Origin: Oceaniglobus trochenteri
GTDB lineage: Bacteria; Pseudomonadota; Alphaproteobacteria; Rhodobacterales; Rhodobacteraceae
Reading direction: 5' to 3'
DNA length: 64,000 nt
NCBI RefSeq assembly: GCF_020529025.1
Contig: NZ_JACNMM010000011.1
Span: forward strand, 1 to 64,000
Shown: positions 14,213 to 34,028 of the stretch, one piece after another
How positions within the stretch are numbered: the stretch's first letter is position 1
Layout of the letters: the number at the start of each line of letters is the position of its first letter
Made by a program: the position numbers and the translations under genes
Notes under the pieces: model-generated
What the model was told of the DNA's origin: nothing
The model's database searches: none
Seen by the model: the letters and a program-made list of their open reading frames with translations, nothing else

Positions 14213-14224
14213 TATAAAGTTATA
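14213..14224. promoter_or_regulatory. Putative GntR operator, TATAA-AG-TTATA
   Basis: A perfect inverted repeat of TATAA/TTATA around a 2-base centre, 28 bp upstream of the aldo/keto reductase start. The same arrangement occurs at 26082-26093, 33144-33155 and 34017-34028. The AT-rich stretch continues to about 14232 and probably also includes the promoter -10. Confidence 0.6.
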
Positions 14225-14252
14225 ATATATTAGCGAAGCACAGGACCATGCC

Positions 14253-15101
14253 ATGACAGTTGCCAATCTTACCCTGAACGACGGCGCGCGGATTCCGCAG
14301 GTGGGTTTCGGGGTCTGGCAACTGCCCGACGCCCGCGCGCCCGAGGTCATCGGCCATGCCCTGAACAGCGGGTATCGCCATATCGACACGGCCCATGCCT
14401 ATAACAACGAGGAAGGCGTGGGGATCGCCGTGCGCGAAAGCGGCCTGCCCCGCGACGACATTTTCGTCACCTCGAAGCTGTGGAACATGTTCCACGGCCG
14501 TGACGCGACGATGAAGGCCTTCGACGGCACCATGCAGCGGCTGGGCCTTGAAACCCTGGATATGTATCTGATCCATTGGCCGGTGCCCATGGAAGACAAG
14601 TATGTCGAATCCTGGAAGGCGATGATCGAACTGCGCGATGCCGGGCGGATCAAGAGCATCGGCGTGTCGAACTTCAACCAGGATCACCTGCAACGGCTGA
14701 TCGACGAAACCGGCGTGGTGCCGGTGGTCAACCAGATCGAGCTTCACCCCCGGTTCCAGCAACGCGCGGCGCGCGATTATCACGAGAAGATGGGCATCCG
14801 CATCGAAAGCTGGAGCCCCCTTGGTCAGGGCAACATCATCGACGACCCGGTGCTGAAAAGCATCGCCGCCAAGCACGGCAAGGGCGTGGGCCAGGTGATC
14901 CTGCGCTGGCATGTCGAACAGGGGCTGGTGGTGATCCCGCGTTCGAAGACGCCCAAACACATCGACGAGAACCTTCAGGTCTTCGATTTCGCCCTCGACG
15001 CCGGGGACATGGAACAGATCGCCGGGATGGACCGCGCCGATGGCCGTATCGGGCCGGTGCCGACGGAACTGGGCGTGGTCAACCTGCCGCCGAAGGAATA
15101 G
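14253..15101 (+). CDS. Aldo/keto reductase
   Basis: 282 residues, a TIM-barrel NADPH-dependent reductase of the 2,5-diketo-D-gluconate reductase type. The catalytic tetrad is visible: Asp in GYRHIDTAHAY and Tyr at its end (about residues 45-50), Lys in TSKLW (about 74) and His in LIHWPVP (about 107). The cofactor-binding C-terminal segment VIPRSKTPKHI is intact. It is a single-gene unit facing the 11-gene operon whose last gene ends at 15173. A GntR-type palindrome precedes it, so it is probably co-induced with the transport and catabolic operons to the right and may interconvert a keto sugar and an alcohol in that pathway. Confidence 0.9.
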   Translation: MTVANLTLNDGARIPQVGFGVWQLPDARAPEVIGHALNSGYRHIDTAHAYNNEEGVGIAVRESGLPRDDIFVTSKLWNMFHGRDATMKAFDGTMQRLGLETLDMYLIHWPVPMEDKYVESWKAMIELRDAGRIKSIGVSNFNQDHLQRLIDETGVVPVVNQIELHPRFQQRAARDYHEKMGIRIESWSPLGQGNIIDDPVLKSIAAKHGKGVGQVILRWHVEQGLVVIPRSKTPKHIDENLQVFDFALDAGDMEQIAGMDRADGRIGPVPTELGVVNLPPKE

Positions 15102-15126
15102 CGGACCGCGCTGGCGCGCGGTGCCT

Positions 15127-15174
15127 GCGGCGCGAGTATTTTCAGCAAGAAAGAGAGGGGGCGCCTGGCCCCCT
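15127..15174. terminator. Convergent-gene spacer with terminator-like hairpin
   Basis: AGGGGGC (15156-15162) can pair with GCCCCCT (15168-15174) around a 5-base loop; the right arm overlaps the stop codon of the CE7 gene. Just left of it, 15127-15155 carries a GCGGCGCGAGTATTTTC segment followed by a purine-rich stretch. I associate this type of spacer, from memory, with ends of genes in many Rhodobacteraceae genomes. It presumably ends the aldo/keto reductase transcript and perhaps the opposing operon. Confidence 0.5.
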
Positions 15175-16159
15175 AGCCGGTCAGTGTCCTTGCCAGAAAG
15201 GCAAGCTGTTGGCGGGTCTGGTCGATCTCGCCGCCCTCGTGGTGGGCATAGGGATAGACGGTGATGTCTTTCGGCCCGCCATAGTGGTTGAAGGCGGCAA
15301 AGACGGTGCGCGGCGGGCAGATGTCATCCATCAACCCGGCGGAATAGAGCGCCGGGGCGCGGGCACGGGCGGCAAAGCCGATGCCGTCGATATGGCGCAG
15401 CGTGTTCTGGATCTCGGGCTCGGCCCCCCGGTGGGACCGCAGATAGCGCACGATCTCGAAATAGGGCTCCTTGTCGGTCATGCGGATCGCCTGGGCGACA
15501 TGGCAGAGGAAGGGCGTGTCGATGCAGGCGGCGGCGACAGGCTCCAGCCCCGCGACGGCCTGGGCCACGGCGCCGCCCTGGCTGGCGCCCAGCACCGCAA
15601 GGCGGCTTTCATCGACCATGGGCAGCCCCTTGACGTCGCGCACCAGGCGCACGGCATCGGTGAACAGCCGGCGGAAATAGCTGGTTTCGGGGCTGCGGAT
15701 GCCCCGCGTCAGCATGCCGGGAAACTGCGGGCCGCCGCCCATGTCGTGATCGGGCGTTGCGCCGGTGGAGCCGCGCCCGCCCGACCAGCCCGCGCCCTGC
15801 CCGCGCGTGTCCATCACCACATGGGCATAGCCCGCGCAGGCCCAGAGCAGGTATTCCTCGGCCTGACCGCGCCCGCCGCCATAGCCCAGGAACTGCACCA
15901 CCGTGGGCAGCGGCCCCCTGGCGCCGGCGGGCAGGTTCAGCCAGGCGCGCACCGGCTGACCGTCGAAGCCGGAAAAGGTGATGTCGTGGCTTTCCACCAG
16001 TTTCAGCGCGGTCTGCGCAGGGGCAAGGCGGATCGGCGCCGCCCTGGCCTGCGCGGCGGCCAGGGTCTGCGCCCAGAAGGCATCAAAGCCCTCGGCCACG
16101 ATGCCCGACAGGTCGGGGCGATAGTCGCGCAGCGCCGCAAGCGGCAGGTCGAATTGCAT
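15173..16159 (-). CDS. CE7-type acetyl esterase (acetylxylan esterase/cephalosporin-C deacetylase family)
   Basis: 328 residues from ATG 16159; the reading frame remains open further upstream only as a shadow of the preceding gene. It is an alpha/beta hydrolase with the whole triad visible: Ser in GASQGG (about residue 182), Asp in GLMDDICPP (about 269) and His in YAHHEGG (about 298). The CE7 segments TRGQG and FLGYGGGRG are also present. It removes acetyl groups from short acetylated sugars; without a signal peptide it is cytosolic and would act after import. It is the last gene of an 11-gene operon, and its start shares the A of the previous stop codon (TGATG). Confidence 0.87.
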   Translation of the reverse strand: MQFDLPLAALRDYRPDLSGIVAEGFDAFWAQTLAAAQARAAPIRLAPAQTALKLVESHDITFSGFDGQPVRAWLNLPAGARGPLPTVVQFLGYGGGRGQAEEYLLWACAGYAHVVMDTRGQGAGWSGGRGSTGATPDHDMGGGPQFPGMLTRGIRSPETSYFRRLFTDAVRLVRDVKGLPMVDESRLAVLGASQGGAVAQAVAGLEPVAAACIDTPFLCHVAQAIRMTDKEPYFEIVRYLRSHRGAEPEIQNTLRHIDGIGFAARARAPALYSAGLMDDICPPRTVFAAFNHYGGPKDITVYPYAHHEGGEIDQTRQQLAFLARTLTG

Positions 16160-17118
16160 CACGCCCCCTTTGCGAAGTTTTCCAGCTTGATGAAGAAATC
16201 GCGGAAGATCGGGTTGCGCTTGAGATGCCGGACATAGCGCATCTGGTGGCGGGCATCGTCGAAGGACCAGGTGGCGTTGTCGGTCAGCACCGGGGTGGAA
16301 CGCAGCACCGAGGGCGCCCAGTCGGGGTTCACCAGCCAGGCGATCACCGCCATGTCCCAGATCTCTTTCGACCAACCGAGGTGATCGTCGGAATACTCCT
16401 TGAACCGCATGGCCAGAAAGGCGCCGATGTCGCCCATGGGTTCGACATAGCGTTCGATTTCCGCCGGGGTCGAGGTGAGATGGGTCGTCACCCCCATGCA
16501 GGGCACCATGACCAGCGGCACGCCACAGTCGAACAGCACCTGCGCGCCGCCGATGTCCTGGCGCAGGTTGAACTCCCATGTGTCGGGCCAGTCGAGCGCA
16601 TTGCCGCCCAGCCAGACCACCACGATCTTCTCGGCGATCTCGGGCGCCTTCAGAAGCGCGGCGGTGACGTTGGAGATCGCGCCGATGGCGACGACGTAAA
16701 GCGGATCGTCGGGCGGAGCGGCCCGCGCGCGGGCGATCAGGTCATCCACCGCCGGGGCATCGCGGGGCTGTTTCGCTTCGCCGATATATTCGGTCACGCC
16801 CTTGAAGACAAAGCCTTCGGGGTCGCGCCCCATGCGTTCCAGAAGGCGCAGGATTTCGTCGTAGGATTGCTGCATCCCGTCGCCGGGGCTGGTGGCGCGG
16901 CTGTTGAAGAAGGGCGCGGCATAGATCGCCTCGACCTCGACCGCCTCGGGCGAGAGGAGGGCATAGACCAGCGCATATTGATCGTCGATTTCGTTGAAGG
17001 TGTCGGTGTCCAGCACCATGCGCACACGGCGGCCCGGGTGGGCCAGCCGGGCGATGCGGCTGGCATCGTCCATCACGGTGACGGGGGCCGTCGGGGCCTT
17101 GCGGGGGGCGACGCTCAT
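16159..17118 (-). CDS. Nucleoside hydrolase-family (IUNH) N-ribohydrolase-like enzyme
   Basis: 319 residues. The Asp-rich calcium-binding motif of the family is clear near residue 37 (DTDTFNEIDDQYAL), and GAISNVTAALL plus the C-terminal WDMAVIAWL region, with an Asp ligand, are present. Family members cleave N-ribosyl bonds of nucleosides; however, this gene sits inside a sugar operon and is coupled by 4-bp overlaps to a TIM-barrel isomerase upstream and by TGATG to an esterase downstream. It may therefore hydrolyse some other glycosidic or N-glycosidic bond. The N-terminus is about 30 residues longer than usual; internal starts exist. Confidence 0.85.
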   Translation of the reverse strand: MSVAPRKAPTAPVTVMDDASRIARLAHPGRRVRMVLDTDTFNEIDDQYALVYALLSPEAVEVEAIYAAPFFNSRATSPGDGMQQSYDEILRLLERMGRDPEGFVFKGVTEYIGEAKQPRDAPAVDDLIARARAAPPDDPLYVVAIGAISNVTAALLKAPEIAEKIVVVWLGGNALDWPDTWEFNLRQDIGGAQVLFDCGVPLVMVPCMGVTTHLTSTPAEIERYVEPMGDIGAFLAMRFKEYSDDHLGWSKEIWDMAVIAWLVNPDWAPSVLRSTPVLTDNATWSFDDARHQMRYVRHLKRNPIFRDFFIKLENFAKGA

Positions 17119-17939
17119 GCCAGGTTCACCCCGGCCCTGGCGGCAAGATCGCGCAGCAGGGCAACGGATTTACGGGCCTCGGCAATGTCGCTGACGTGTT
17201 CCAGGATCAGCCAGCTGTCGGCGGGCATGTTGGGCTCCATCATCTTCAGCACCTGCGCCCAGTCGGTGGGGCTGGTGCCCAGGGGCGCAAGGCCCATCTT
17301 CAGGTGAAACCCGTCGTCCAGGCCGATGTCCTTGATGTGGCCCAGGCCATAGGCGCCGGCGTAACCTTCGCAGACATCGCGGCAGCGGGGGCCGGGGCGC
17401 GCATAATCGCGGAAATCATAGTGCGATGTCACATCGAGGTTGGCCACCAGCGCGTCGGGGTCCTCCATCCTTTCGCGCAACCGGTGAAAGGCGTCGGGGC
17501 CGTCGATGGCGGTTTTCAGGTAGGGCTCGATGGAAATCTTCGCGCCGTGCCGGGCGGCCAGCCGCACCATGGGGTTCAGTTTCGCCACCAGTTCATCGAA
17601 GGCGCCTTCGGAATGGTTGCGCGCGTCCCAGGCGCCAAAGCCGCTGGGGTGATGATTGCCGCCGCAGATGACGATATAGGGGCAGCCGGTTTCAGCAGCG
17701 AGCGGGATCGCCTTTTCCAGCATGGCGGTCTGTTTTTCCTGCGCGCCCGTGTCGGTGCTGAGCGGATTGTACCCGAAGGCGCCGATCTGGCAGACCTCAA
17801 GCCCCTTGTCGCGCAGGGGGGCCAGCGTTTCGGCCAAGCCCTTTTCGGCCAGGTCGGCGGCGTTGATCGGCACGCCCCTGATGCCCAGTTCGACGGCGGC
17901 GGCATGGCTATCGGCGCCTGCCTCAAGTCCAAGTCTCAT
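17115..17939 (-). CDS. Sugar phosphate isomerase/epimerase-like TIM-barrel protein
   Basis: 274 residues of the xylose-isomerase-like (AP endonuclease family 2) superfamily. Metal-binding positions are suggested by the Glu in ISIEPYLK (about 145), Asp in NLDVTSHYDF (about 180), His in GHIKDIG (about 212) and Glu in LILEHVSD near the end. Such proteins isomerise, epimerise or dehydrate free or modified sugars and often partner with Gfo/Idh/MocA oxidoreductases. That is the case here: the upstream gene overlaps it by 4 bp and encodes one. A deglycosylation or keto-sugar isomerisation role is plausible but not proven. Confidence 0.85.
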   Translation of the reverse strand: MRLGLEAGADSHAAAVELGIRGVPINAADLAEKGLAETLAPLRDKGLEVCQIGAFGYNPLSTDTGAQEKQTAMLEKAIPLAAETGCPYIVICGGNHHPSGFGAWDARNHSEGAFDELVAKLNPMVRLAARHGAKISIEPYLKTAIDGPDAFHRLRERMEDPDALVANLDVTSHYDFRDYARPGPRCRDVCEGYAGAYGLGHIKDIGLDDGFHLKMGLAPLGTSPTDWAQVLKMMEPNMPADSWLILEHVSDIAEARKSVALLRDLAARAGVNLA

Positions 17940-18919
17940 GTGGTTTCTCCCAGGTCTACGGGCTGTCCGGTGCGGATCGAGGCATAGACCGCCTCGGCCA
18001 GTTCCACCGCCTCAAGCCCGTGTTGCGGTGTGGCGGCGAAGGGTTCCTTCGCCGCGATCTGTGCGAAGAAATGGTCGAAGGCATCGGAATACCGTGTCCG
18101 ACCAAGGGTTTCGGGCCAATAGGCGAGGCGCTTCTGATCTTCGCCGCGCCGGGCCCAGTTCAGGCCGGTCCACATGTGCTGATGGCCCTGCAACTGGGCG
18201 CGGCCCGTCGCGCAGGCCAGGTCAAGGCGCGGGAAATCGTCGGGCGCCCCGGCCCCCCGGATGCCCCCCAGCGTCAACGCGGCCACCGCCCCGCTGGCAT
18301 AGCCGAGCGTCACCGCCGCCCCCGTGGCCGAGGGGCGTGCGCCGTCGTCATAACCGGCGGCATAGACACGCGCCGGCCGGCCCATGACCGCGCGCACCAC
18401 GTCAAACAGGTGGCAGGAGTTCTCGGTGAAGAACCCCCCGCCCTTCTCCGGATTCCACAGCCATTCGGCATCGGGCAGCCAGTCGAACAGGTATTCCCCG
18501 TTCAGGATGCGCGGGGCCCCGAGGCCCGGCAGCTCGGCCAGAAGCCGCTGCACCGGGGCATGAAAGCGGAAGGAAAAGGCCAGGAACACCGGGTGCCCCT
18601 TGGTCACCTTCACGATCTCGCGGGCCTGTTGGGCGGTTCCGGCGATGGGTTTTTCCATGAACACCGGAATGCCCGCCGCCATTGCCGCCTCAAGCCCCGC
18701 GCCCCGCACATGGGGGGCCGAGGACAGGACAACGGCATCAAGCCCCGCCTCGCGGATCATCGCCGCGTCGTCGGTCCAGGTGGGAATGCCGCGCGACCTC
18801 GCGAAGGCGAGCCTTTCGGAGAGATGGTCGGACACGCCCGCCACCTCGCAATCGGCGCGGTTCAGGACCGTGTGCAGCAGGTTCAGCCCGAACCCCTGCC
18901 CCGCGATGCCGATCCGCAT
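17936..18919 (-). CDS. Gfo/Idh/MocA-family oxidoreductase
   Basis: 327 residues from ATG 18919; the longer open frame is an artefact of the preceding gene. The N-terminal Rossmann fold starts at once (MRIGIAGQGFGLNLLHTV). The family EKP signature is at about residues 92-94 (FMEKPIAG), and the catalytic-region His occurs in ENSCHLFDVVR (about 178). The enzyme uses NAD(H) or NADP(H) on a sugar or sugar-derivative hydroxyl. It lies next to a second, longer paralogue (18919-20142), with a TGATG junction between them, so the operon carries two such enzymes, perhaps for an oxidation and a later reduction in the same pathway. Confidence 0.87.
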   Translation of the reverse strand: MRIGIAGQGFGLNLLHTVLNRADCEVAGVSDHLSERLAFARSRGIPTWTDDAAMIREAGLDAVVLSSAPHVRGAGLEAAMAAGIPVFMEKPIAGTAQQAREIVKVTKGHPVFLAFSFRFHAPVQRLLAELPGLGAPRILNGEYLFDWLPDAEWLWNPEKGGGFFTENSCHLFDVVRAVMGRPARVYAAGYDDGARPSATGAAVTLGYASGAVAALTLGGIRGAGAPDDFPRLDLACATGRAQLQGHQHMWTGLNWARRGEDQKRLAYWPETLGRTRYSDAFDHFFAQIAAKEPFAATPQHGLEAVELAEAVYASIRTGQPVDLGETT

Positions 18920-20142
18920 CACCAGTCCACCGTGGTCTTCATCATGTATTTCTTGCCGGTTTCCGCGCTTTCCTGGGCGCCGGTCAGCATTTCGTTGATA
19001 TGTGCGCCCCAATCCTCGTCGATCAGGATGGGGGTGTCGTTCAGGATCGCATCGCACATCAGGCGGCTGCTTTCGTGGTAATAGTTGAAACCACCCGGCG
19101 TGGGCTTGGGCCATTTGCCCTTGGACAGATCACCCTCTTTCCCGATGTCCATCCAGCCGTTTTCGTCGGGATTTTCCAGCATGTCCTGTTTCGTCGAATA
19201 GACGGTGGCCATGATCCCGGGGCGGGGATCGAAATAGATGTTGCCCTCGGTCCCGAAGACCTCCATCGCGCCGGAACGCACGCCCTTGGGGATCGGATGG
19301 AAGGGGCGGCCCACATGGAACATGCCGATCCAGCCCGAGTGCATTTCGTAAAGGATGTTGTAGGTATCGGGCGCCTCCATGGTGCAGGCATCGGTTTTCG
19401 GCGCCTTGACCACCGCATCCCAATAGTTGGCATCCCAGGGGTCGGTCGCCTTGGCCAGGTAATCGGTGTAGTCGCTTTCGGGCACGATCTGGCGGCTGGG
19501 CATCTGCAGCGCCGACATGGCCATCACCGATTTGCAGGCCCCGAACATCGAAACGATCTGGCTGGGGCCATAGGCGTAATCATACAGCATCCCGCCGCTT
19601 TCCTTGTTCAGGAAGGCCGCCGCGCCGTAGGGGTTGTGACCCAGGCCACCGTTGTCATGGTCGGGGCCCGTCCAGATGAAGCTGAACCAATAGGGATCGC
19701 CAAGTGCGCCGTCCTTCACCAGGCTGCGCAGTTTCGGGAAGGGCCGTTGCAGGGGCGATTGCTGCGAGGGTTCGACAAGGCATTTCACGCCCGCCTCTTT
19801 CACCGCCGCCTGGATGGCATCGGCATCGGCCTTGGTGGTGGCCATGGGTTTTTGCAGCAGGATATGCTTGCCCGCCTTGGCCGCCGCGATCGAAAACAGC
19901 TTGTGGGTGCCGGGGCCGGTGAGGATCCAGACCGCCTCGATGTCGGCCTTTTCCAGCATCTCGAAGTAGTCGGTATAGCCCTCGCGCGCGCCGAACAGGC
20001 GCTGGCAATCCTTCACGCGCTGTTCATCCAGATCGCAGACCGCCACCAGATCGGCCTCGGGGTGATCCATCAGGAACGGGAAGTAATAGGCCGAAGCCAC
20101 CACGCCGCAGCCCACGGCTCCGATTTTTACCTGTCTGCTCAT
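18919..20142 (-). CDS. Gfo/Idh/MocA-family oxidoreductase, QKP variant
   Basis: 407 residues from ATG 20142, with AAAGGA upstream as ribosome binding site. It is longer than its neighbour paralogue by about 80 residues because of an enlarged C-terminal domain. The Rossmann start VKIGAVGCGVVASAYY is clear. The usual EKP is changed to QKP (LLQKPMATT, about residues 96-104), keeping the Lys that contacts cofactor and substrate. A YDYAYGPSQI segment (about 205-214) lies where the catalytic region is expected. It is probably the dehydrogenase for the imported sugar or glycoside. It is coupled to the following gene (TGATG) and only 4 bp from the SDR stop. Confidence 0.85.
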   Translation of the reverse strand: MSRQVKIGAVGCGVVASAYYFPFLMDHPEADLVAVCDLDEQRVKDCQRLFGAREGYTDYFEMLEKADIEAVWILTGPGTHKLFSIAAAKAGKHILLQKPMATTKADADAIQAAVKEAGVKCLVEPSQQSPLQRPFPKLRSLVKDGALGDPYWFSFIWTGPDHDNGGLGHNPYGAAAFLNKESGGMLYDYAYGPSQIVSMFGACKSVMAMSALQMPSRQIVPESDYTDYLAKATDPWDANYWDAVVKAPKTDACTMEAPDTYNILYEMHSGWIGMFHVGRPFHPIPKGVRSGAMEVFGTEGNIYFDPRPGIMATVYSTKQDMLENPDENGWMDIGKEGDLSKGKWPKPTPGGFNYYHESSRLMCDAILNDTPILIDEDWGAHINEMLTGAQESAETGKKYMMKTTVDW

Positions 20143-20146
20143 CGTT

Positions 20147-20959
20147 CTATCCTTTCTTGTGACCTGCAATCCGCAGAACCCACTGATCGTCGGCGACGAT
20201 CCGGTCGGCATCCGCGATGATGCTCTCGTAATCCTTGTGGGGCAGGAAATACCGCCCCGTCAGCTTGTCCGCCCGCCCCGAGGCCAGGGCCAGCACGCAA
20301 TCCGCCACCACCTGAGGAGGGAAATCCTCGCCCTTCTCGAAGATCTCCTTGATCAGGGGGCGGTGGGTCTTGGCCTGTTCGTCGTTGATGAGCCATTGCG
20401 TCATCGCCGTGTTCACCGCGGGCGGACCGATGCAGAAGGCCGTCACGCCATGGGGCTGCAATTCCATCGAAAGCCCTTCGGTGATGCGGGTGACGCCGGT
20501 TTTCGACGCCGCGTAAGAGGTGCCGTAGGGGTGCCCGTCAAGAACCCCGCCGGAACTGACGATATTGACGATGCGCCCCGCCCCGCGGTCCACCATGCCG
20601 CCCGCCACCCGGTTGCACATCAGGAAGGTGCCCTTGAGGTTCACGTCGATATCGCGGAACCACCTGTCGGGGTCGCATTCCCACATGGGCGCGCAGACGC
20701 TGAAGGTGCCGGCGTTGTTGATCAGCAGATCGCAGGGCGGCAGGGCCTTTTCGGCCTCTGTCACCGCCGCATCGACACTGGCGCGGTCGGTGACGTTCAT
20801 CGCGTGGGCGCTGACGCCCTCGCCCAGCTCGCCCGACGCCCGGTCAAGCGCCTCCTGCGAGATGTCGAACATCGCCACGCGATACCCCGCGTTCAGCAAT
20901 CCTTCGGTGATCGCGCGGCCCAGACCGCCCGCGGCACCGGTGACATAAGCAACTGGCAT
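20147..20959 (-). CDS. Short-chain dehydrogenase/reductase (SDR)
   Basis: 270 residues. TGAAGGLG at about residues 7-14 binds the nucleotide, INNAG is at about 81-85, Ser in VSSGG at about 133, and the active-site YAASK at about 149-153. The C-terminal segment is longer than in classical SDRs and carries DKLTGRYFLPHKDY. The gene lies between the ABC permease genes and two Gfo/Idh/MocA genes, so three NAD(P)-dependent oxidoreductases are encoded in a row. This suggests a redox-rich route in which a hydroxyl is oxidised to activate the sugar for cleavage or epimerisation. Confidence 0.87.
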   Translation of the reverse strand: MPVAYVTGAAGGLGRAITEGLLNAGYRVAMFDISQEALDRASGELGEGVSAHAMNVTDRASVDAAVTEAEKALPPCDLLINNAGTFSVCAPMWECDPDRWFRDIDVNLKGTFLMCNRVAGGMVDRGAGRIVNIVSSGGVLDGHPYGTSYAASKTGVTRITEGLSMELQPHGVTAFCIGPPAVNTAMTQWLINDEQAKTHRPLIKEIFEKGEDFPPQVVADCVLALASGRADKLTGRYFLPHKDYESIIADADRIVADDQWVLRIAGHKKG

Positions 20960-20969: not shown

Positions 20970-21800
20970 TCAGGCTTTGACTGCGCCGCCGGCGAAGCCT
21001 TCGACGATTTTTTCTCGGAAGAAGATGAACAGGACGATGATCGGCACCGATGCCAGGACCATCCCCGCCATCAGCGCGGGATAATCGGTGGCATATTGCC
21101 CCCCGAAGGTGCGCAGCCACAGCGGGATCGGCTTGTAGGATTCATCGCGGATCAGGGTGGTGGCAAAGGCGAATTCGTTCCAGGAATGCAGGAACGACAG
21201 CAGCGCCACCGTGGCCACGATGGGCCGGCAGATCGGAAAGACGATCACGAACATCACGGTGAACAGCGAGGCGCCATCGACATGGGCCGCCTCGTCCAGC
21301 TCGACCGGGATCTTGCGGATGTAGCCCTCCATCAGGAAGACGGCCAGAGACAGGCCGAAGGCGGTATAGGGGATCAGCAGGGTGAACTGCGTGTCGAGAA
21401 TTCCGATGGTGCGGTATTGCATGAAAACCGGCACCAGAAGGGCCGGAATGGGCAGAAGCAGCCCCAGGATGAAGAAGGAAAACACCGCCGCGCGGCCCGG
21501 AAATTCGAACCGGGCCAGCACATAGGCGATGCAGTAGGACAGAAGCACGATCAGCGTGGTCGAGGCCACGGCATAGAACAGCGAATTCCACATCGCCGTC
21601 CAGACGGTGCCCACCTCGAAGATCTGCACATAGGCGCGGAAGGTCGGGTCGGACGGCAGGGCAAAGATGCTTTCGCTGAAGGCCGCCGTCGATTTCAGCG
21701 AATTGTAGATGACCCAGATCATCGGAAAGATCGTGGTCAGCGCAAAGAGGATCAGCGCCGCGTTGATCAGGATGGCGGGAAGGGTGATGCGGCCGGTCAT
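20970..21800 (-). CDS. ABC carbohydrate importer, permease 2 (MalG-like)
   Basis: 276 residues from ATG 21800, overlapping the other permease gene by 4 bp (ATGA). Six helices are predicted; the EAA loop DEAAHVDGASLFTVMF is at about residues 180-195, and the C-terminus GFAGGAVKA is typical of MalG-like subunits. Together with 21797-22690, the binding protein at 22748 and the ATPase at 24099 it makes a complete CUT1-type sugar importer. Confidence 0.9.
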   Translation of the reverse strand: MTGRITLPAILINAALILFALTTIFPMIWVIYNSLKSTAAFSESIFALPSDPTFRAYVQIFEVGTVWTAMWNSLFYAVASTTLIVLLSYCIAYVLARFEFPGRAAVFSFFILGLLLPIPALLVPVFMQYRTIGILDTQFTLLIPYTAFGLSLAVFLMEGYIRKIPVELDEAAHVDGASLFTVMFVIVFPICRPIVATVALLSFLHSWNEFAFATTLIRDESYKPIPLWLRTFGGQYATDYPALMAGMVLASVPIIVLFIFFREKIVEGFAGGAVKA

Positions 21801-22690: not shown

Positions 22691-22715
22691 GACGCCGTCT
22701 CCTGGTGCGAAAGGG

Positions 22716-22741
22716 GGCCGGGCGCGGGGATGCGCCCGGCC
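22716..22741 (-). other. Intercistronic stem-loop after binding-protein gene
   Basis: GGCCGGGCGC (22716-22725) and GCGCCCGGCC (22732-22741) form a perfect 10-bp stem with a 6-base loop, six bases beyond the binding-protein stop. No T-run follows on the minus strand. It probably stabilises the upstream mRNA segment. Confidence 0.65.
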
Positions 22742-26022: not shown

Positions 26023-26081
26023 GGTTCTGGCTTTCCTTGGTTTCGTGCAAGCCGCCGGATGCGACTCATATATCGTAAAAA

Positions 26082-26093
26082 TATAATGTTATG
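26082..26093. promoter_or_regulatory. Putative GntR operator, TATAA-TG-TTATG
   Basis: It has 11 of 12 matches to the TATAA-NN-TTATA palindrome and the same TG centre as 33144-33155. It lies 60 bp upstream of phyH, the first gene of the 11-gene operon, and next to the terminator of the preceding operon. Confidence 0.6.
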
Positions 26094-26099
26094 ACTTAT

Positions 26100-26131
26100 C
26101 CGGGGGTGCAAGGGCTTTCTTGCACCCCCGG
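26100..26131 (-). terminator. Terminator of the family-5 ABC operon
   Basis: CCGGGGGTGCAAG (26100-26112) pairs perfectly over 13 bp with CTTGCACCCCCGG (26119-26131), loop GGCTTT. On the minus strand it lies four bases after the stop of the uncharacterised gene at 26136 and runs into an AT-rich stretch, though not a clean T-run. It separates the two GntR-linked operons. Confidence 0.8.
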
Positions 26132-26135
26132 CGCC

Positions 26136-27116: not shown

Positions 27117-28147
27117 GGCAAGCTCTCCGGTTCGGGGGGTGGTTGATCGTAACTGCCGAGATCAAGGTCGTCGGCGTGATGACAGGCCACCCGGGTTTCC
27201 GGGCGGCGGCGCCAGGGGCGCAGTTCGGGTTCGTGGGTGCGGCAGATGTCGGTGGCAAAGGGGCAGCGCCCGGCAAAGACACAGCCCTTGCGCAGCCCGC
27301 TTGGCCCGCCGATCTCGCCGCTCAGCACCTTGCGCTTGCGGTGCTTTCCGCCAACGCGGGCCGGCATCGCATCCAGCAGGGCGCGGGTATAGGGATGCGC
27401 GGGCGCGGCGAAGAGATCGTCGCGGGTGGCCAGCTCCATCACCGTGCCAAGGTACAGCACCATGATCCGGTCGCTGATGTAATCCACCACGCCCAGATCG
27501 TGACTGACGAAGATATAGGTCAGCCCCATTTCCTTTTGCAGATCGCCCAGCAGGTTCAGAACCTGGGCCTGCACGCTGACATCCAGCGCCGACACCGGTT
27601 CATCGCAGATCAGCAGGCGCGGCGAGATGGTCAGGGCCCGGGCGATGCCCACCCTCTGGCGCTGCCCGCCCGAAAGCTGGTGAGGGTAACGGTTGACGGC
27701 ATCCGCACTCAGCCCCACCCGCTCCAGCAGGCTGCGCACCCTTTCGATGCGCTCGGCCTTGGTGCCGATCCCGTGGATCTCCAGCGGTTCGGCCACAATC
27801 TCGCCGATCCGCATCCGGGAATTGAGGCTGGCGTTCGGGTCCTGGAACAGCATCTGGATTTCGCGCCGCACCTTGCGCAAACCGGCCTTGTCCAGCGTGG
27901 CCAGATCGACCGGCCCGTCCTTGGCTTGAAACACCATGCTGCCTTGCGAGGGGGCATAAAGCCGGGCGATGCAGCGCCCGATCGTTGTCTTGCCCGACCC
28001 GCTTTCGCCGACGATCGACAGGGTTTCCCCCTGCTTCAGGTCAAAGCTGACCTTGTTCACCGCCAGAAGGCCGCTTCCCTTCACCTTGGGCTTTGCCCCG
28101 AAGCGCAGCGACAGGTCGGCCACGCTCAGGATCGTGTCATCCGTCAT
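27113..28147 (-). CDS. Family-5 ABC importer ATPase (DppF/OppF type)
   Basis: 344 residues from ATG 28147, overlapping the previous ATPase gene by 11 bp. Walker A is GESGSGKTT (about residues 43-51), signature LSGGQRQRVG (about 158-167), Walker B LLICDEPVSALD (about 176-187) and the switch His in VSHDLGVV. The C-terminal oligopeptide-transporter extension carries the cysteine motif seen in Opp/Dpp ATPases (CVFAGRCPFATDIC, then a later Cys), which in homologues binds an iron-sulfur cluster. It pairs with 28137-29123 as the two ATPases of one importer. Confidence 0.92.
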   Translation of the reverse strand: MTDDTILSVADLSLRFGAKPKVKGSGLLAVNKVSFDLKQGETLSIVGESGSGKTTIGRCIARLYAPSQGSMVFQAKDGPVDLATLDKAGLRKVRREIQMLFQDPNASLNSRMRIGEIVAEPLEIHGIGTKAERIERVRSLLERVGLSADAVNRYPHQLSGGQRQRVGIARALTISPRLLICDEPVSALDVSVQAQVLNLLGDLQKEMGLTYIFVSHDLGVVDYISDRIMVLYLGTVMELATRDDLFAAPAHPYTRALLDAMPARVGGKHRKRKVLSGEIGGPSGLRKGCVFAGRCPFATDICRTHEPELRPWRRRPETRVACHHADDLDLGSYDQPPPEPESLP

Positions 28148-29123
28148 GGCGCACCTCGTCATCGTAAAGCCAGCAGGCCGCCGAAGTATCGTCATCGATG
28201 CGGAAGGTGGGCGGCTGGGTCTGGCAGATCGCCATGGCCTTGTCGCAGCGCGGCGCAAAGGGGCATCCGGGCGGGCGTTCGTGGGGGCCGGGCACCGACC
28301 CCTTGATCGGCTTCAGCCGCGACCGGCGCCCAATGGCCGGCAGCGATTCAAGCAGGCCCTTGGTATAGGGATGGGCCGGCGCATCGAACACCTTGGCGGC
28401 CGTCGTGGTTTCCATCACCCGGCCCAGGTACATCACGATCAGCCGGTCGGCCACTTCGCCCACCACGTTCAGATCGTGGGTGATCAGCATGACCGACATG
28501 TCCCGTTCGGCCTTCAGCTCGGCGATCAGGTCAAGGATCTGCGCCTCGACCGTCACGTCCACCGCCGTCGTCGGTTCGTCCGCGATCAGAAGCGCCGGGT
28601 CCGAGGACAGCGCCATGGCGATCATCGCGCGCTGGCGCATCCCGCCGGAAAAGGCGTGGGGGTACTGGCGGGCGCGCTGTTCGGGCTGGTTGATGCCCAC
28701 GCGATCCAGCAGCATCACCGCCTTTTCCATCGCCTCGGCCTTGGACAGGTCGGAATGGGTGCGGATCGCCTCGACGATCTGGGCGCCGATGGTATGGACC
28801 GGGTTGAGCGAGGTCATCGGCTCTTGAAAGATCATGCCGATCTGCCCGCCGCGAATGTCGCGCATTTCGGTGCCGCGCGGATCAAGCCGGGCGACATCGA
28901 CGCCGTTGAACAGGATTTCGCCCTCGGCGATGCGCCCGATCCGCGGCGGCAGGAGCCGCATGATCGACCGCGCCGTCACCGACTTGCCGCAGCCCGATTC
29001 GCCCACCACGCCCAGGGTTTCGCCCTTGGCGATCTGGAAGCTCACGTTCTCGACCGCGCGCAGCAACCCCTGCTCAAGATGGTAGTGGGTGCTGAGGTTG
29101 TTGATTTCCAGCAGTGGTTTCAT
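28137..29123 (-). CDS. Family-5 ABC importer ATPase (DppD/OppD type)
   Basis: 328 residues from ATG 29123, overlapping the permease stop by 4 bp. Walker A GESGCGKSV (about residues 38-46) ends in Val rather than the usual Thr or Ser-Thr, as is common in OppD proteins. The signature is FSGGMRQRAM, with Walker B LLIADEPTTAVD and ITHDLNVV following. The C-terminal CPFAPRC motif with flanking cysteines is the Opp/Dpp-type cluster. It powers uptake together with the DppF-like partner. Confidence 0.92.
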   Translation of the reverse strand: MKPLLEINNLSTHYHLEQGLLRAVENVSFQIAKGETLGVVGESGCGKSVTARSIMRLLPPRIGRIAEGEILFNGVDVARLDPRGTEMRDIRGGQIGMIFQEPMTSLNPVHTIGAQIVEAIRTHSDLSKAEAMEKAVMLLDRVGINQPEQRARQYPHAFSGGMRQRAMIAMALSSDPALLIADEPTTAVDVTVEAQILDLIAELKAERDMSVMLITHDLNVVGEVADRLIVMYLGRVMETTTAAKVFDAPAHPYTKGLLESLPAIGRRSRLKPIKGSVPGPHERPPGCPFAPRCDKAMAICQTQPPTFRIDDDTSAACWLYDDEVRHDG

Positions 29124-30244
29124 GAGAAGGGGTCCACCATGTCGCGCAGGCCGTCGCCCAGGAAGTTGAAGGCCAGCACCGTGATGAGGATGAAACCGGC
29201 AGGCGCCAGCATCCACGGGTAAAGCGCGATCACCTGCACCTTGAAGGCATCCGACAGCAAAAGCCCCCAGGACATCATTGGCGGGCGCACCCCGATCCCC
29301 AGGAACGACAGCGCCGATTCACCCAGGATGGTGACGGGAATGGCCAGCGTCGCGGTGACGATGATATGGCTCATCATGTTGGGGATCAGATGCTTGCGCA
29401 CGATCCGCCCGGTGCTGGCCCCCGAGGCCTGGGCGGCCAGCACGAAATCGCGTTTCTTGAGGCTGAGCGTCAGCCCCCGCACCTCACGCGCCAACCCGGT
29501 CCAGCCCAGGAAGGCAAGAACCACGACGATGCCCGCATAGACCCATTCGGGCGGCCAGAGCGGCGGGATCGCCGCCGAAAGCGCCATCCACAGCGGGATT
29601 TCGGGAAAGACGCGCAGGGTTTCGATGAAGCGCTGGGTCACCGCATCGAACCAGCCGCCGTAATAACCCGACAGCGTGCCGATGACCGACCCGAGGATCA
29701 CCAGGATCAGCACCCCCATCAGGCCCACCGAAAGCGACACCTGCCCGCCGTAAAGGATGCGGCTGAACAGGTCGCGCCCCCGCTGGTCGTGGCCCAGCAG
29801 GCTGACCCTTGCGTCGTCGTTGCGGGTCTTGAACAGATGCATGTCCCAGGGAATGAGGCCCACGATCTTGTAAGGGGCGCCCCGCTCGAAAAAGTAGATG
29901 TAGTGGGGTTCGCTGCGGTCCTCGACGAACTCCAGCAGGAAGGTCTTCTTGCTGCGTTCGGCCGTGGTGGCATAGACGAAGGGGCGCAACGAACAGCCCG
30001 CGTTCTCATCGCAGAACCGCACCCTTGTGGGCGGTGCGAAGGACAGGCGCGAAACGCCGTCCTGCGGGCCATAGGGCGCCGTGAACCCGGCAAAGATGGT
30101 GGCCAGGTACAGCACGATCAGAACCAGCGCCGAGATCACCGCCAGCCGGTTGTTCAGGAACTTGCGCCACATCAGCTGGCGCACGCTCAGCAGGCGATAG
30201 TCGCCCTTGGCCGCGGGGGCCGGGTTGGTTGCCGCATCAGCCAT
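29120..30244 (-). CDS. Family-5 ABC importer permease (DppC/OppC type) with large periplasmic insert
   Basis: 374 residues, some 70 longer than ordinary DppC/OppC proteins. After the first helix (about residues 33-55) comes a soluble segment of about 100 residues rich in aromatic residues and containing a Cys pair (RFCDENAGCSL, about 82-92) that may form a disulfide. The permease core then begins with the conserved GHDQRGRDLFSRILYG motif (about 151-166). The EAA-like loop is LAAQASGASTGRIVRKH, and GESALSFLGIG lies before the last helices. It overlaps the DppB-like gene by 8 bp. The insert may contact the binding protein or the substrate. Confidence 0.88.
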   Translation of the reverse strand: MADAATNPAPAAKGDYRLLSVRQLMWRKFLNNRLAVISALVLIVLYLATIFAGFTAPYGPQDGVSRLSFAPPTRVRFCDENAGCSLRPFVYATTAERSKKTFLLEFVEDRSEPHYIYFFERGAPYKIVGLIPWDMHLFKTRNDDARVSLLGHDQRGRDLFSRILYGGQVSLSVGLMGVLILVILGSVIGTLSGYYGGWFDAVTQRFIETLRVFPEIPLWMALSAAIPPLWPPEWVYAGIVVVLAFLGWTGLAREVRGLTLSLKKRDFVLAAQASGASTGRIVRKHLIPNMMSHIIVTATLAIPVTILGESALSFLGIGVRPPMMSWGLLLSDAFKVQVIALYPWMLAPAGFILITVLAFNFLGDGLRDMVDPFS

Positions 30245-31232
30245 CGCGCACCCTCGGGTCTGAGATCGCCAGCAGGATGTCGGCGATGATGTTTCCGATC
30301 AGAAGCGTGACCGCCAGGATCATCAGGACCGTGCCGGCCAGATACATGTCCTGCGCGATCAGCGCGCGATAGAAGGGCGGCCCCAGCGTGGGCAGGTCCA
30401 GCACGATCGAGATGATGATCGTTCCGTTCAGCAGCACCGGAAGCTGCATCCCCAGGCGCGAAATCAGCGGGTTCAGCGCGATCCGCGCGGCGTGCTTGTA
30501 GATCACCGTGCGTTCCTTCAGCCCCTTGGCGCGGGCGGTTTCGACGAACTGCTGGTCCAGCAGGTCCAGAAGGTTGGCGCGCATGATCCGGTAGGTGCCC
30601 GCCATCCCGCCGATGGCCAGGATGAACAGCGGCACCGCCAGATGCTGCAGGAAATCCCAGAACCGCGCCAGGCTCCAGGGGGCATCGACAAACCCCTCGC
30701 TGAACAGCCCGCCGACATAGTTTGAATCCAGCAGGAAGATCGCGACGAAAAGATAGATCACCGCCATCAGGAAATCGGGGATCGACAGGCCGAACAGCGC
30801 GACGTTGGACAGAAGGTAATCGGCAAAGCGGTTCTTGTGGGTCGCCGCATAGATGCCCAGCGGAATCGCCATGCCCCAGGACAGGATCAGCGCCAGGATC
30901 ACCAGAAGGAAGGTCATGCCGATGCGGCGACCGACGATATCGGCCACCTCGGCCCCGTCATAGATGATGGAAAACCCGAAATCGCCCCGGAAGAACCCGC
31001 CGACCCATTTCAGGTACTGCAGGTACATCGGTTCACCGAAACCATAGCGTTCGCGCAGGTATTCGATGGTTTCGGCCGGAAGACGCGATCCGGCGATGAT
31101 TTCCTGCTGCTTCACATAGGTCGACACCACGTCGCCCGGGGGCAGCTGGATCACCAGGAAACTGATCAGCGAGATCAGAAACAGGGTGAACACCGTCGAG
31201 AGCGCGCGGCGCACTATCTTGTTCTGGAACAT
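30237..31232 (-). CDS. Family-5 ABC importer permease (DppB/OppB type)
   Basis: 331 residues with six helices. The N-terminus MFQNKIVRRALSTVFTLF and the following PPGDVVSTYV segment are typical of DppB. The coupling loop ETARAKGLKERTVIYKHA at about residues 230-247 fits the family pattern and docks on an ATPase. It heterodimerises with the DppC-like subunit encoded next. It is separated from the binding-protein gene by a stem-loop. Confidence 0.92.
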   Translation of the reverse strand: MFQNKIVRRALSTVFTLFLISLISFLVIQLPPGDVVSTYVKQQEIIAGSRLPAETIEYLRERYGFGEPMYLQYLKWVGGFFRGDFGFSIIYDGAEVADIVGRRIGMTFLLVILALILSWGMAIPLGIYAATHKNRFADYLLSNVALFGLSIPDFLMAVIYLFVAIFLLDSNYVGGLFSEGFVDAPWSLARFWDFLQHLAVPLFILAIGGMAGTYRIMRANLLDLLDQQFVETARAKGLKERTVIYKHAARIALNPLISRLGMQLPVLLNGTIIISIVLDLPTLGPPFYRALIAQDMYLAGTVLMILAVTLLIGNIIADILLAISDPRVRDG

Positions 31233-31253
31233 CTGGTTTCCACCGGTTGGAGT

Positions 31254-31288
31254 GCAGGCCGCGCCGGGGAGAGCGCGGCACGGCCTGC
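31254..31288 (-). other. Intercistronic stem-loop after binding-protein gene
   Basis: GCAGGCCG (31254-31261) pairs with CGGCCTGC (31281-31288), with further GC pairing possible inside. It sits eight bases after the binding-protein stop on the minus strand, without a T-run, as in four other operons of the window. Confidence 0.55.
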
Positions 31289-31296
31289 GGGTTGGA

Positions 31297-33093
31297 TCAC
31301 TTGGCGGTCTTGTCGAACAGCAGCATGGCCTGCCATGCGGGCTGATCGTTCACCTGGTCCGAACGGGTGATCTTCTCGGGCGCGTTGCCCAGCCGGTTGT
31401 TGTGGATGAAGGGACGCTCGAAATAGCCCAGATGCACGATCCAGGCATTGTCGGCCATCAGGCGCGATGCCTCTTGCATGTCCTTCTGGCGCTGCTCGAA
31501 GGGCTTGGTGGTCGCGCCGTTCATCAACTCGCCGAAGTGGGTGAAATTCTCGTCCACATCGCCGGTTTCCTCGTGCTTGGCGTGATAGGGCGGCATGTTG
31601 GGGCGGCCCGGCGAGATTTCATCGAAGTTCTGGGACAGCGGGAAGGACGAACCTTCGTAGTCCCAGACGTGCATGGTGAAATCGCCCTCCTGATACTTGT
31701 CGCGGATGGCGGTCTGGTCGCCCACGTTCATCGTCGCCTTGATGCCGATGTCCTTGAGGTAGTCCGTCACGATCAGTTCGACGATCCCGGTGTAAAGGTC
31801 GTGCTGGCCCACGTCGATGACCAGGTTGATGGCTCCGCCCTCGGGATCTTCGAGATAGCCGTCACCGTCGGTGTCGGAATAGCCCGCCTCGGCCAGCATC
31901 GCCTTGGCTTCCTCGGGGTCGTATTCGGCCCAGAGCTTGTAATCCTCTTCGCGGAAATAGGGCGTGACCGGCGCGAAGGCCGCGTTGCCGGGGTTGAGGA
32001 AGCCGTTGTAGTAGATGTTGTTGATCTCTTCGCGGTCGATGGCCACCGAAACGGCGCGCCGGAAGTTCACGTCGCGCATGACCTTGCGCAGGGCCTCGTC
32101 GGCGTGATCGAAGTTGAAATAGATCGCCATGCCCGGCACGTCGCCGAAGATGATCGAAATGTCCCGCCCGCTTTGAATCGCTTCCGAGAACAGGCCCAGG
32201 TGCTGCGGGCCCACCCACATCGAATCCAGGTCGAACTTGCCCGTGGCATTGCCAAGCGCGACAGACTGGCGGTCTTCCACGATCTCGACCGAAGCCTTGT
32301 CGAAATAGGGCAGCTGGTTACCCGCCGTGTCGACCTTCCAGTAATAGGGATTGCGGGTGAGGTTGTAGTGTTCGCCCTCGACGTAATCCTCAAGCATCCA
32401 GGCCTGAAGCGTGACCTTGCCGCGCCCTGTCTGAAGGCCCAGCTTGGTGTTCAGCTCCTCATAGGTGGCGCCGTCGGTGAAATCGGGGTGGAACTGCTTC
32501 ATGTAGTGTTTCGGCCAGGCGATTTCCCAGACCGAGGCCATGGCCTCTTCGAAGAAATAGTAGGGCTTGCCGAAATCGAACTTCACCTCGGTCGGGCTCA
32601 GCACGGTCAGCGCGGGCGGCTTGCCATCCACCAGAAGGATGCCCGGAAACGCCTCGGAGACGTTTTCGTTCAGCATGATGTCGTTCCAGTAGAAGGCGAT
32701 GTCGTCGGCGGTGAAGGGCGCGCCGTCGGACCATCTGATCCCGTCGCGCAGCGTCACCACGGCCGAGGACCCGTCTTCGGAATATTCGATCCCCGACGCC
32801 AGGTTGGGCACCGGCGGGCCGGCGTTGGTAAGCGGCAGTTGCCACATGAACAGCGGTTCGCGGGTGAAGTTCTCGGTCAGGTAATCGACGATGATGGCCG
32901 ATCCCCGCTTCAGCGTTCCGCCATAGACCCCGACCTCCTCAAGCGGTGTCATGACGCGCGGATTGCTGGGCAGGCGTTCGGCCACAGGCGGCAGGTCCAT
33001 CCCGTCCAGCATCGGTGACTGGTGGTATTCCTGCGCCATGAGTGGCGAAGTCATGAGCGCGCAGAACGCAATTGACGACAGTAGCTGTCTCAC
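31297..33093 (-). CDS. Family-5 ABC importer, periplasmic binding protein
   Basis: 598 residues, starting at GTG 33093, which is preceded by GGGAGGA at ideal spacing; the ATG at 33117 would place that ribosome binding site inside the gene. The signal peptide (QLLSSIAFCALMTSP, then LMAQ) ends near residue 21. The SBP_bac_5 layout is clear, with LRDGIRWSDGAPFTADDIAFYW at about residues 118-138 and FRRAVSVAIDREEINN at about 335. There is an Asp-rich YSDTDGDGYLEDP stretch (about 402-414) resembling a calcium-binding loop. Proteins of this class carry peptides, but also oligosaccharides and glycosides; the neighbouring sugar enzymes favour the latter. Confidence 0.9.
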   Translation of the reverse strand: MRQLLSSIAFCALMTSPLMAQEYHQSPMLDGMDLPPVAERLPSNPRVMTPLEEVGVYGGTLKRGSAIIVDYLTENFTREPLFMWQLPLTNAGPPVPNLASGIEYSEDGSSAVVTLRDGIRWSDGAPFTADDIAFYWNDIMLNENVSEAFPGILLVDGKPPALTVLSPTEVKFDFGKPYYFFEEAMASVWEIAWPKHYMKQFHPDFTDGATYEELNTKLGLQTGRGKVTLQAWMLEDYVEGEHYNLTRNPYYWKVDTAGNQLPYFDKASVEIVEDRQSVALGNATGKFDLDSMWVGPQHLGLFSEAIQSGRDISIIFGDVPGMAIYFNFDHADEALRKVMRDVNFRRAVSVAIDREEINNIYYNGFLNPGNAAFAPVTPYFREEDYKLWAEYDPEEAKAMLAEAGYSDTDGDGYLEDPEGGAINLVIDVGQHDLYTGIVELIVTDYLKDIGIKATMNVGDQTAIRDKYQEGDFTMHVWDYEGSSFPLSQNFDEISPGRPNMPPYHAKHEETGDVDENFTHFGELMNGATTKPFEQRQKDMQEASRLMADNAWIVHLGYFERPFIHNNRLGNAPEKITRSDQVNDQPAWQAMLLFDKTAK

Positions 33094-33143
33094 GTGTTGT
33101 CCTCCCTGAACAAGCATAGACTGGCAGTGTAATCGTATTAATT

Positions 33144-33155
33144 TATAATGTTATA
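33144..33155. promoter_or_regulatory. Putative GntR operator, TATAA-TG-TTATA
   Basis: A perfect TATAA/TTATA inverted repeat, 51 bp upstream of the binding-protein GTG start and between it and the gntR-type gene. Its centre TG is the same as at 26082-26093. It would control the importer operon 33093-26136. Confidence 0.65.
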
Positions 33156-33195
33156 CCTTTTCCGAAAGCCATGGCAACCCTCGCGTTGACAGGTT

Positions 33196-33993
33196 TCAGG
33201 TAATCCTGTTGTCGGCCCCGCCCCAGATGATTTCCTGGCGCAGCGAAAACACGTCGGTCCGGTAATACAACCGGCGCACATCGAGAGGCTGGTTGGTCGA
33301 TGAATACCCTACCCTTTCGACAAAAAGCGCCGGCGCATCCGCCCGCAGCCCAAGTTGAGCGCGCCGTTCGTCCGAAAGCATGACGGCATTGACGGTCTGG
33401 TCGCATTTCACCACGTCTATGCCCAACCGCTGATAGCTTTCGGTCAGCGTTTCGGTGCCCTCCAGCACCCTGTCGAACACCTGCGGATAGTCGCGGACGG
33501 ACAACATGATGCTTTCAAGGCAAAAAGGCGTGCCGTCGCCCAGGTGAAGCCTTTTCAGGATGCCCACCTCGGCGCCAATCTCGATGCCAAGTTGCTGCGC
33601 GGTCAGCTCTGACACCATGTGCTGTTCGTATCTCAGGTTCTCAGCCGTCGCGCGGCGCCCCAACGACTCGATCTCGGCGGCAACGGTGCGGTGGTTCACC
33701 CGTGCCCCGCTTTTGGGAAGGTTGCCCACGAAAGACCCGCGACCGCGATAGCGCACGACGAAGTTGCCATCCACAAGCTGCGACATGGCCTGGCGCACGG
33801 TGATGCGGCTGACGGCATAGGTCTCCTCGATCTCGGAATCCTTCAGAAAGGCATCGCCCGGCTGCCATTCGCCATCCAGCAGGCGGCGGCGCAGGTCGAT
33901 GAACAGCTGATGATACAGCGGCATTGCACTGTTGCGGTCCAGCCGATAGGCGGACCCTGCCGCCGGTTGCGTCTTCGCCGCGATGTTCTGCAT
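33196..33993 (-). CDS. GntR-family regulator with UTRA effector domain (HutC subfamily)
   Basis: 265 residues from ATG 33993 (a GTG at 33999 is the alternative). The winged helix-turn-helix occupies about residues 20-90 (PLYHQLFIDLRRRLLDGEW, SEIEETYAVSRITVRQAMSQL, then RGRGSFV), followed by a UTRA domain (about 105-260), which binds small ligands such as sugar phosphates. It lies directly upstream of the family-5 importer operon on the same strand. Palindromes TATAA-NN-TTATA upstream of it and of three other units are the proposed targets. It is likely a repressor released by a pathway intermediate. Confidence 0.9.
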   Translation of the reverse strand: MQNIAAKTQPAAGSAYRLDRNSAMPLYHQLFIDLRRRLLDGEWQPGDAFLKDSEIEETYAVSRITVRQAMSQLVDGNFVVRYRGRGSFVGNLPKSGARVNHRTVAAEIESLGRRATAENLRYEQHMVSELTAQQLGIEIGAEVGILKRLHLGDGTPFCLESIMLSVRDYPQVFDRVLEGTETLTESYQRLGIDVVKCDQTVNAVMLSDERRAQLGLRADAPALFVERVGYSSTNQPLDVRRLYYRTDVFSLRQEIIWGGADNRIT

Positions 33994-34016
33994 CTGCACC
34001 TGTTCCCAAGATTTGT

Positions 34017-34028
34017 TATAACATTAGA
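34017..34028. promoter_or_regulatory. Putative GntR operator, TATAA-CA-TTAGA (autoregulation)
   Basis: It has 11 of 12 matches to the TATAA-NN-TTATA palindrome; read on the other strand its centre is TG as at 33144-33155. It overlaps a perfect GTTATAAC palindrome (34015-34022), a form common for HutC-type regulators. It lies about 24 bp upstream of the regulator start. Confidence 0.6.

Follow-up and report, generated by a model that had tools for sequence, protein, structure and literature searches.

The 64,000 nucleotides analysed here (the window; positions 1 to 64,000 of a contig of Oceaniglobus trochenteri, hereafter contig C1) contain a gene for a GntR/HutC regulator, and the inverted repeat TATAANNTTATA (TATAA-NN-TTATA) is found upstream of this gene and of three neighbouring units. 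The locus raises the question of whether these repeats are the operators of one local regulon or promoter elements that happen to be palindromic, and which pathway such a regulon would serve. From sequence comparison, the four units very probably form a local, autoregulated GntR/HutC regulon with these sites as operators. In the mechanism we infer, a GntR dimer would bind YATAACWTTATR, a refined form of the repeat, at four promoters and hold off the aldo/keto reductase gene, an 11-gene catabolic operon, a family-5 ATP-binding cassette (ABC) import operon and its own gene, until a sugar ligand on the UTRA domain releases the protein and the units are switched on. Such a local GntR switch next to the genes it controls would be nothing unusual; its gene set is rare.

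Palindromic sites in front of the four units

The regulator gene and the sites are as follows (coordinates in the window).

33196-33999, minus strand: gntR, GntR/HutC regulator with UTRA domain (PF00392, PF07702); 60% identical to the copy in Oceanomicrobium pacificus
14213-14224, minus strand: putative operator before the aldo/keto reductase gene, reading TATAACTTTATA on this strand; pattern, matrix and an O. pacificus counterpart (C1:585340 of that genome) with one mismatch
26082-26093, minus strand: putative operator before the 11-gene operon, CATAACATTATA; pattern, matrix and a 16-base word also found upstream in O. pacificus
33136-33147, minus strand: second, overlapping weak match of doubtful function; pattern and matrix, with no general 8-base spacing of second sites
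33144-33155, minus strand: putative operator upstream of the family-5 ABC operon, TATAACATTATA, with an overlapping −10-like hexamer; pattern, promoter scan and matrix
34017-34028, plus strand: putative operator before gntR, TATAACATTAGA; pattern, matrix and YATAACWTTATR scan, with an 11-base word common with O. pacificus

A pattern scan of the window located the palindrome exactly where the initial annotation had placed it, perfect at 14213-14224 and 33144-33155 and with one mismatch (11 of 12 positions) at 26082-26093 and 34017-34028. A fifth match, also with one mismatch, overlaps the site at 33144 by 4 bases (33136-33147). The assignment of the sites to the four units was likewise reproduced, and the gaps between site and start codon are 28, 59, 26 and 17 bases for the aldo/keto reductase gene, the 11-gene operon, the family-5 operon and gntR, respectively (start codons and gene counts are those of our own open reading frame (ORF) calls). 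The count over the whole genome that had been proposed as a check, with one mismatch allowed, gave six distinct matches in 4,588,933 bases, all of them on contig C1 (148,473 bases); palindromic matches, which appear on both strands, were counted as distinct places. Five of the six are located in the window and one at C1:77474-77485, 13 kb past the window end. If matches were randomly placed, at least five of six would fall into a given 64 kb with p ~3 × 10−9, and at least four of five, when the overlapping pair is taken as one match, with p ~2 × 10−7. No match was obtained in 100 dinucleotide shuffles of the window. Among 32 AT-only palindromes of the form N5-NN-N5′, TATAA-NN-TTATA had five matches in the window (runner-up two) and four in 80 kb surrounding the cluster in O. 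pacificus (runner-up two).

The sixth match has a PfkB-DUF2090 (iolC-like) gene on one side and a short-chain dehydrogenase gene on the other; the latter is followed by a gene for a protein without Pfam match. This site may add a fifth unit to the regulon outside the window.

Recurrence of the cluster in Oceanomicrobium pacificus

A search for the GntR protein at E 1e-30 in 147 relatives detected it in the host genome and in one other, that of O. pacificus KN286 (60% identity). Among 390 genomes drawn from the order, the host alone encodes this GntR, and among 398 genomes drawn from the phylum it alone encodes the PhyH-family dioxygenase of the 11-gene operon (E 1e-40). Two PhyH peptides, which detect only relatives retaining one of them, were scanned over named genome contigs and gave 26 stretches, one of which, from O. 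pacificus KN286, codes for a relative. The peptide-pattern scan of genome contigs for GntR yielded none and also missed the O. pacificus copy, and therefore carries little weight. Of the plasmid records, 1459 contain a GntR relative, all below 60% identity and at 27% to 31% among the matches listed (30), and none contains a relative of PhyH, of the unnamed protein at the end of the family-5 operon or of its distant relative at E 1e-5.

The O. pacificus genome (approximately 3.3 Mb) contains five matches to the palindrome, four of which precede the orthologous aldo/keto reductase gene, PhyH operon, family-5 operon and gntR; four of five within 16 kb corresponds to p ~3 × 10−9. The fifth, at 488103, has no query gene within the surrounding 3 kb. 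The gene order is equal in both genomes, including the gene for a protein of the acetyl xylan esterase family (AXE1), except that in O. pacificus PhyH is directly followed by the short-chain dehydrogenase gene and the four-gene SBP_bac_1 importer (20970-25169 in the window) is absent from the cluster. One GntR regulon of about 20 genes, with two importers for one substrate, had been proposed initially. The comparison supports the four-unit regulon well, for which we count 19 genes with a site before gntR itself, whereas the two importers are not a core feature, the shared core having one. The genes may serve a single substrate.

The sites were further compared by matrices of 16 columns, each made from the four sites of one genome and applied to the other. 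With the O. pacificus matrix, the four window sites took the first four ranks in 95 kb of C1, and C1:77472 the seventh. In the reverse direction, the O. pacificus sites took ranks 1, 2, 3 and 5; the match at rank 4 is shifted and overlaps one of them. With a matrix of all eight sites, C1:77472 was among the top five places on C1, the other four being the sites themselves, as follows from the construction of the matrix. Outside the sites, the intergenic regions show little similarity, and the alignment itself did not pair the sites before the aldo/keto reductase gene and gntR. The upstream regions of PhyH share the 16-base word AAGTCATAACATTATA, compared with a longest word of 11 bases in 60 shuffles.

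Regulator, operator shape and alternative explanations

The gntR product carries a GntR helix-turn-helix domain (PF00392, 46.2 bits, cut-off 27) and a UTRA domain (PF07702, 90.1 bits, cut-off 23.8), and the presence of inverted-repeat sites before gntR and the neighbouring units is as expected of a GntR/HutC regulator. Its best solved match is NagR (YvoA), followed by DasR among others. Both resemble it in their GntR and UTRA domains and, according to the excerpted text of PMC4333415, in short palindrome-like operators before sugar genes. In NagR, Arg38 and Arg48 each read a guanine (PMC4333415, excerpted text). Arg48 aligns with Arg65 of the window's GntR and Arg38 with Ser55, in both species (NagR residues numbered by counting in our alignment), so that one of the two guanine-reading arginines that go with the dre sites of NagR and DasR is retained and the other replaced. 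The helix-turn-helix is conserved between the two GntR proteins. The system differs from NagR/DasR in this residue, in its AT-rich, guanine-poor operator and in its genes, which are not N-acetylglucosamine (GlcNAc) genes. Ser55 in place of Arg38 agrees with the guanine-poor operator but proves nothing.

The 12-base palindrome, initially taken as the whole operator, appears to be too short. In the eight sites of the two genomes, the information per column is raised from about 3 bases left of the 12-mer through its right end, and YATAACWTTATR, which includes this left extension, fits better. Exact YATAACWTTATR is present in six copies in both genomes together, at three window sites and three O. 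pacificus sites, all inside the cluster. With one mismatch, five further places were found in the host genome (34017, 77474 and one each on contigs C13, C24 and C27) and three in O. pacificus (585340, 593010 and one on its contig C2). The central C is identical in all eight sites. Two nested dyads are possible, as TATAAC|WTTATA and GTYA|TAAC are nearly equal in their fraction of complementary pairs (0.61 vs. 0.59). Binding sites of GntR proteins follow a GT...AC rule, which the second dyad resembles. A recurrent second half-site 8 bases away, hinted at by the matrix scans, was dropped: the non-overlapping part matched to 0.37 at ±8, below ±1 (0.50) and ±7 (0.48).

Several observations weigh against the sites being operators of one regulon. 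The control pattern read backward is more frequent than the palindrome in the host genome (9 vs. 6) and in O. pacificus (9 vs. 5), and the same applies to YATAACWTTATR (13 vs. 8 and 8 vs. 6, respectively); 24 genomes of the same genus or family without this GntR, compared by count, hold 0 to 25 matches each among the matches listed. The genome-wide totals are not high, and the case therefore rests on the clustering and the place of the sites. The one-mismatch matches of YATAACWTTATR on host contigs C13, C24 and C27 and on O. pacificus C2 count on this side, too. The upstream regions of gntR share an 11-base word inside the motif, which equals the longest in 60 shuffles (11), and for two of the four orthologous upstream pairs (aldo/keto reductase, family-5 operon) the longest word in common on the same strand does not exceed 6 bases. 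One conserved A is missing from the aldo/keto reductase site of O. pacificus, and the gntR site of that genome was only fifth in the reverse matrix test. Because the sites of both genomes were picked with one pattern, there is some circularity in the matrix test and in the refined consensus, and because the system was found in two genomes only, its conservation rests on a single comparison. The evidence for the substrate consists of family resemblance alone.

A promoter scan of 25900-34300 found three sites compared with 1.6 expected. One of them, TTGCCA-18-TAACAT, passes through the site at 33144 and is directed to the family-5 operon, and the stronger CTGGCA-17-TATAAT at the same site is directed the opposite way; no match touches the sites at 26082 or 34017, nor was one found at 14213, outside this stretch. 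A correctly directed −10 overlap at one of four sites, beside a stronger match in the opposite direction, is a further point against the regulon. Because the right-way match overlaps the site at 33144 alone, we suggest only with reserve that the repressor covers the −10 region. These promoter-like matches, together with TATAAT or near hexamers inside the sites and total counts not above those of the backward control, would also be expected if the motifs were merely −10 boxes of sigma-70 promoters that are palindromic by chance. This explanation, which the initial annotation had named as the one that would overturn its proposal, is nevertheless highly improbable, because −10 boxes occur genome-wide and would not gather on a single contig, because no promoter match touches three of the four sites, and because the central C, not needed by a −10 box, is the same in eight of eight sites in two genomes.

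There is only a slight probability that the sites belong to another regulator, with GntR as a bystander. Binding by GntR is our inference, a further site is located at C1:77474 near the iolC-like gene, and the window also contains two genes of the LacI type and one of the ROK type. Against this, GntR is the sole regulator inside the shared block by our ORF calls and has its own site, and a search of the 80 kb surrounding the O. pacificus cluster with the LacI and ROK proteins of the window gave nothing better than E = 1. It is rather unlikely, though less so, that two pathways stand under the one switch, one for the substrate of the family-5 importer and one for that of the SBP_bac_1 importer. 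The SBP_bac_1 cassette lies inside the operon in the host genome only, and the two binding proteins resemble different sugar binders; however, all operon enzyme genes are also present in the O. pacificus cluster, which lacks the cassette, and for this reason one pathway may suffice.

Genes of the probable regulon, putative pathway and neighbouring loci

The local GntR regulon, as read here, would comprise the following genes in addition to gntR (percentages are identities to the O. pacificus counterparts).

14253-15101, plus strand: aldo/keto reductase (PF00248), nearest to DkgA (2,5-diketogluconate reductase) but under the cut-off (NF008598, 332.8 bits, cut-off 425); 64%
15173-16157, minus strand: acetyl xylan esterase family, AXE1 (PF05448), start estimated, ORF running to 16579; O. 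pacificus AXE1, 61% over 207 residues compared
16159-17118, minus strand: nucleoside-hydrolase-like protein (PF01156; alignment to ribonucleoside hydrolases) with DTDTFNEIDD near its start; 79%
17115-17939, minus strand: xylose-isomerase-like TIM barrel (PF01261); 72%
17936-19114, minus strand: Gfo/Idh/MocA dehydrogenase 2 (PF01408), domain from ORF residue 66; 51%
18919-20211, minus strand: Gfo/Idh/MocA dehydrogenase 1 (Pfam), best solved match DgpA1; 80%
20147-20959, minus strand: short-chain dehydrogenase (PF00106); 70%
20970-25169, minus strand: sugar ABC importer cassette of two permeases, SBP_bac_1 binding protein and ATPase (Pfam); not in the O. pacificus cluster
25192-26022, minus strand: PhyH-family dioxygenase (PF05721), first gene of the 11-gene operon; 80%
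26136-27116, minus strand: unnamed protein without match in Pfam or NCBIfam, encoded by the last gene of the family-5 operon; 60-62%
27113-31232, minus strand: oligopeptide-type ABC importer with ATPases (27113-28258, 28137-29216) and permeases (29120-30244, 30237-31232), first and last by Pfam
31297-33117, minus strand: family-5 solute-binding protein (PF00496)

The cassette ATPase (ORF 24099-25169) was named from its similarity to ABC ATPase genes, without a Pfam scan, and the middle two genes of the oligopeptide-type importer were assigned from gene order and from their identity of 75% and 84% to the O. pacificus counterparts. Of 10 regulon proteins compared with NCBIfam, none reached a curated cut-off among the matches listed (for the short-chain dehydrogenase, the best 25 of 217). 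The nucleoside-hydrolase-like protein belongs to the broader family PF01156 but falls short of the RihA/RihC equivalogs (62.4 bits to RihC, cut-off 382); relatives at E 1e-25 occur in seven of 244 genomes drawn from the order, host included. Two further host copies of its gene are located in tandem at C29:306784-308661 (60% and 66% identical to the window's) and adjoin genes similar to the window's sugar ABC importer and LacI-type genes.

The pathway as a whole can be outlined only tentatively. A glycoside or oligosaccharide would be imported, its acyl groups taken off by AXE1 and the glycoside opened by oxidation involving the Gfo/Idh dehydrogenases and the TIM-barrel protein, with the PhyH dioxygenase, the nucleoside-hydrolase-like enzyme and the reductases assisting; in what order the enzymes act and on what kind of substrate is conjectural. 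A precedent is the levoglucosan pathway (lgdA-lgdB1-lgdB2-lgdC with an ABC importer and LacI), which shows that Gfo/Idh and sugar-isomerase-like proteins are able to break a glycosidic bond through oxidation followed by elimination; its steps are oxidation, elimination, hydration and reduction (PMC7676230, excerpted text). The window likewise combines a sugar importer with Gfo/Idh dehydrogenases and a sugar-phosphate-isomerase-like protein. The gene list in the excerpted text of PMC7676230, in contrast, has no PhyH, nucleoside-hydrolase-like or AXE1 gene, and the two Gfo/Idh proteins of the window score 57.6 and 24.3 bits as levoglucosan dehydrogenases (cut-off 650). Inositol catabolism is not indicated by iolG, since the same proteins reach 75.1 and 76.1 bits to inositol 2-dehydrogenase (cut-off 355). 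DgpA1, the best solved match of Gfo/Idh/MocA dehydrogenase 1, with sugar 3-ketoreductases lower in the list, links the cluster by likeness to the 3-oxidation of C-glycosides by DgpA (PMC8563793, PMC11239390; excerpted texts), but the match spans only residues 27-147. For the TIM-barrel protein, no solved relative was found at E 0.001 with a one-sequence query, and two sequences gave five weak ones (0.011 to 0.87) of mixed kinds. The best solved matches of the family-5 binding protein are the oligopeptide-type 5ipw, then SPH1118, alpha-galactoside-binding and chitin-oligosaccharide-binding proteins; SPH1118 is a pectin-binding protein (PMC9314435, excerpted text).

The unnamed protein had no relative at E 1e-6 in 384 other genomes drawn from the class, a draw that missed O. 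pacificus, which has one. Among 299 genomes drawn from the phylum (E 1e-4), two relatives besides the host were found, in other classes and with 32% identity, and both adjoin genes for D-mannonate dehydratase (ManD; 672 and 668 bits, cut-off 550) and a Gfo/Idh protein. One ManD locus, scanned further, also contains a sodium-solute symporter gene and a mannitol-dehydrogenase-family gene. The ManD clusters thus resemble the window in having a relative of the unnamed protein beside a Gfo/Idh gene and differ in that the relative starts with an apparent lipoprotein signal; tblastn with GntR, PhyH, the family-5 binding protein and the nucleoside-hydrolase-like protein of the window gave no match within the 20 kb around the two loci. 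The unnamed family is tied to carbohydrate metabolism in two unrelated settings. An AlphaFold2 model of the protein built from two sequences had a mean pLDDT of 41 and was not used.

Because of these ManD-side relatives, AXE1 and the likeness to a pectin binder, our guess, a weak one, is that the cluster serves an oxidation-based cleavage of an acylated, perhaps uronate-containing glycoside. It is possible, though doubtful, that the genes encode an undescribed glycoside route, in which oxidative cleavage replaces a glycoside hydrolase, using PhyH, a DTDTFNEIDD-type enzyme and the unnamed family, under a GntR with a changed guanine-reading residue for an AT-rich operator. In the openly licensed literature, we recognised no paper on this cluster and none naming O. 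pacificus. For what is apparently an uncharacterised and rare sugar pathway, the locus supplies an operator open to testing and a delimited set of genes.

Genes for a Rep3 initiator (46797-48026), for a ParA-like protein (44995-46383) and for a ParB-like protein (43911-44993, barely over the cut-off) make it probable that contig C1 is a plasmid; it is presumably one whole replicon. It is rich in sugar transport genes. Outside the regulon, at 5958-8288 of the window, a glycosyl hydrolase family 88 gene adjoins an enolase-superfamily gene, a pair with a uronate-like theme. An ADP-ribosylglycohydrolase domain is encoded amid sugar ABC importer genes at 35213-38203, with a LacI-type gene at the far end. 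A PIN-domain protein and a small ORF (43588-43842) within 43203-43842 resemble a toxin-antitoxin pair, the antitoxin being guessed from its position. Two proteins without Pfam match, encoded at 54069-55241 of the window and at C1:78328-79420, are 81% identical over the 219 residues compared, and the second adjoins the sixth operator match.

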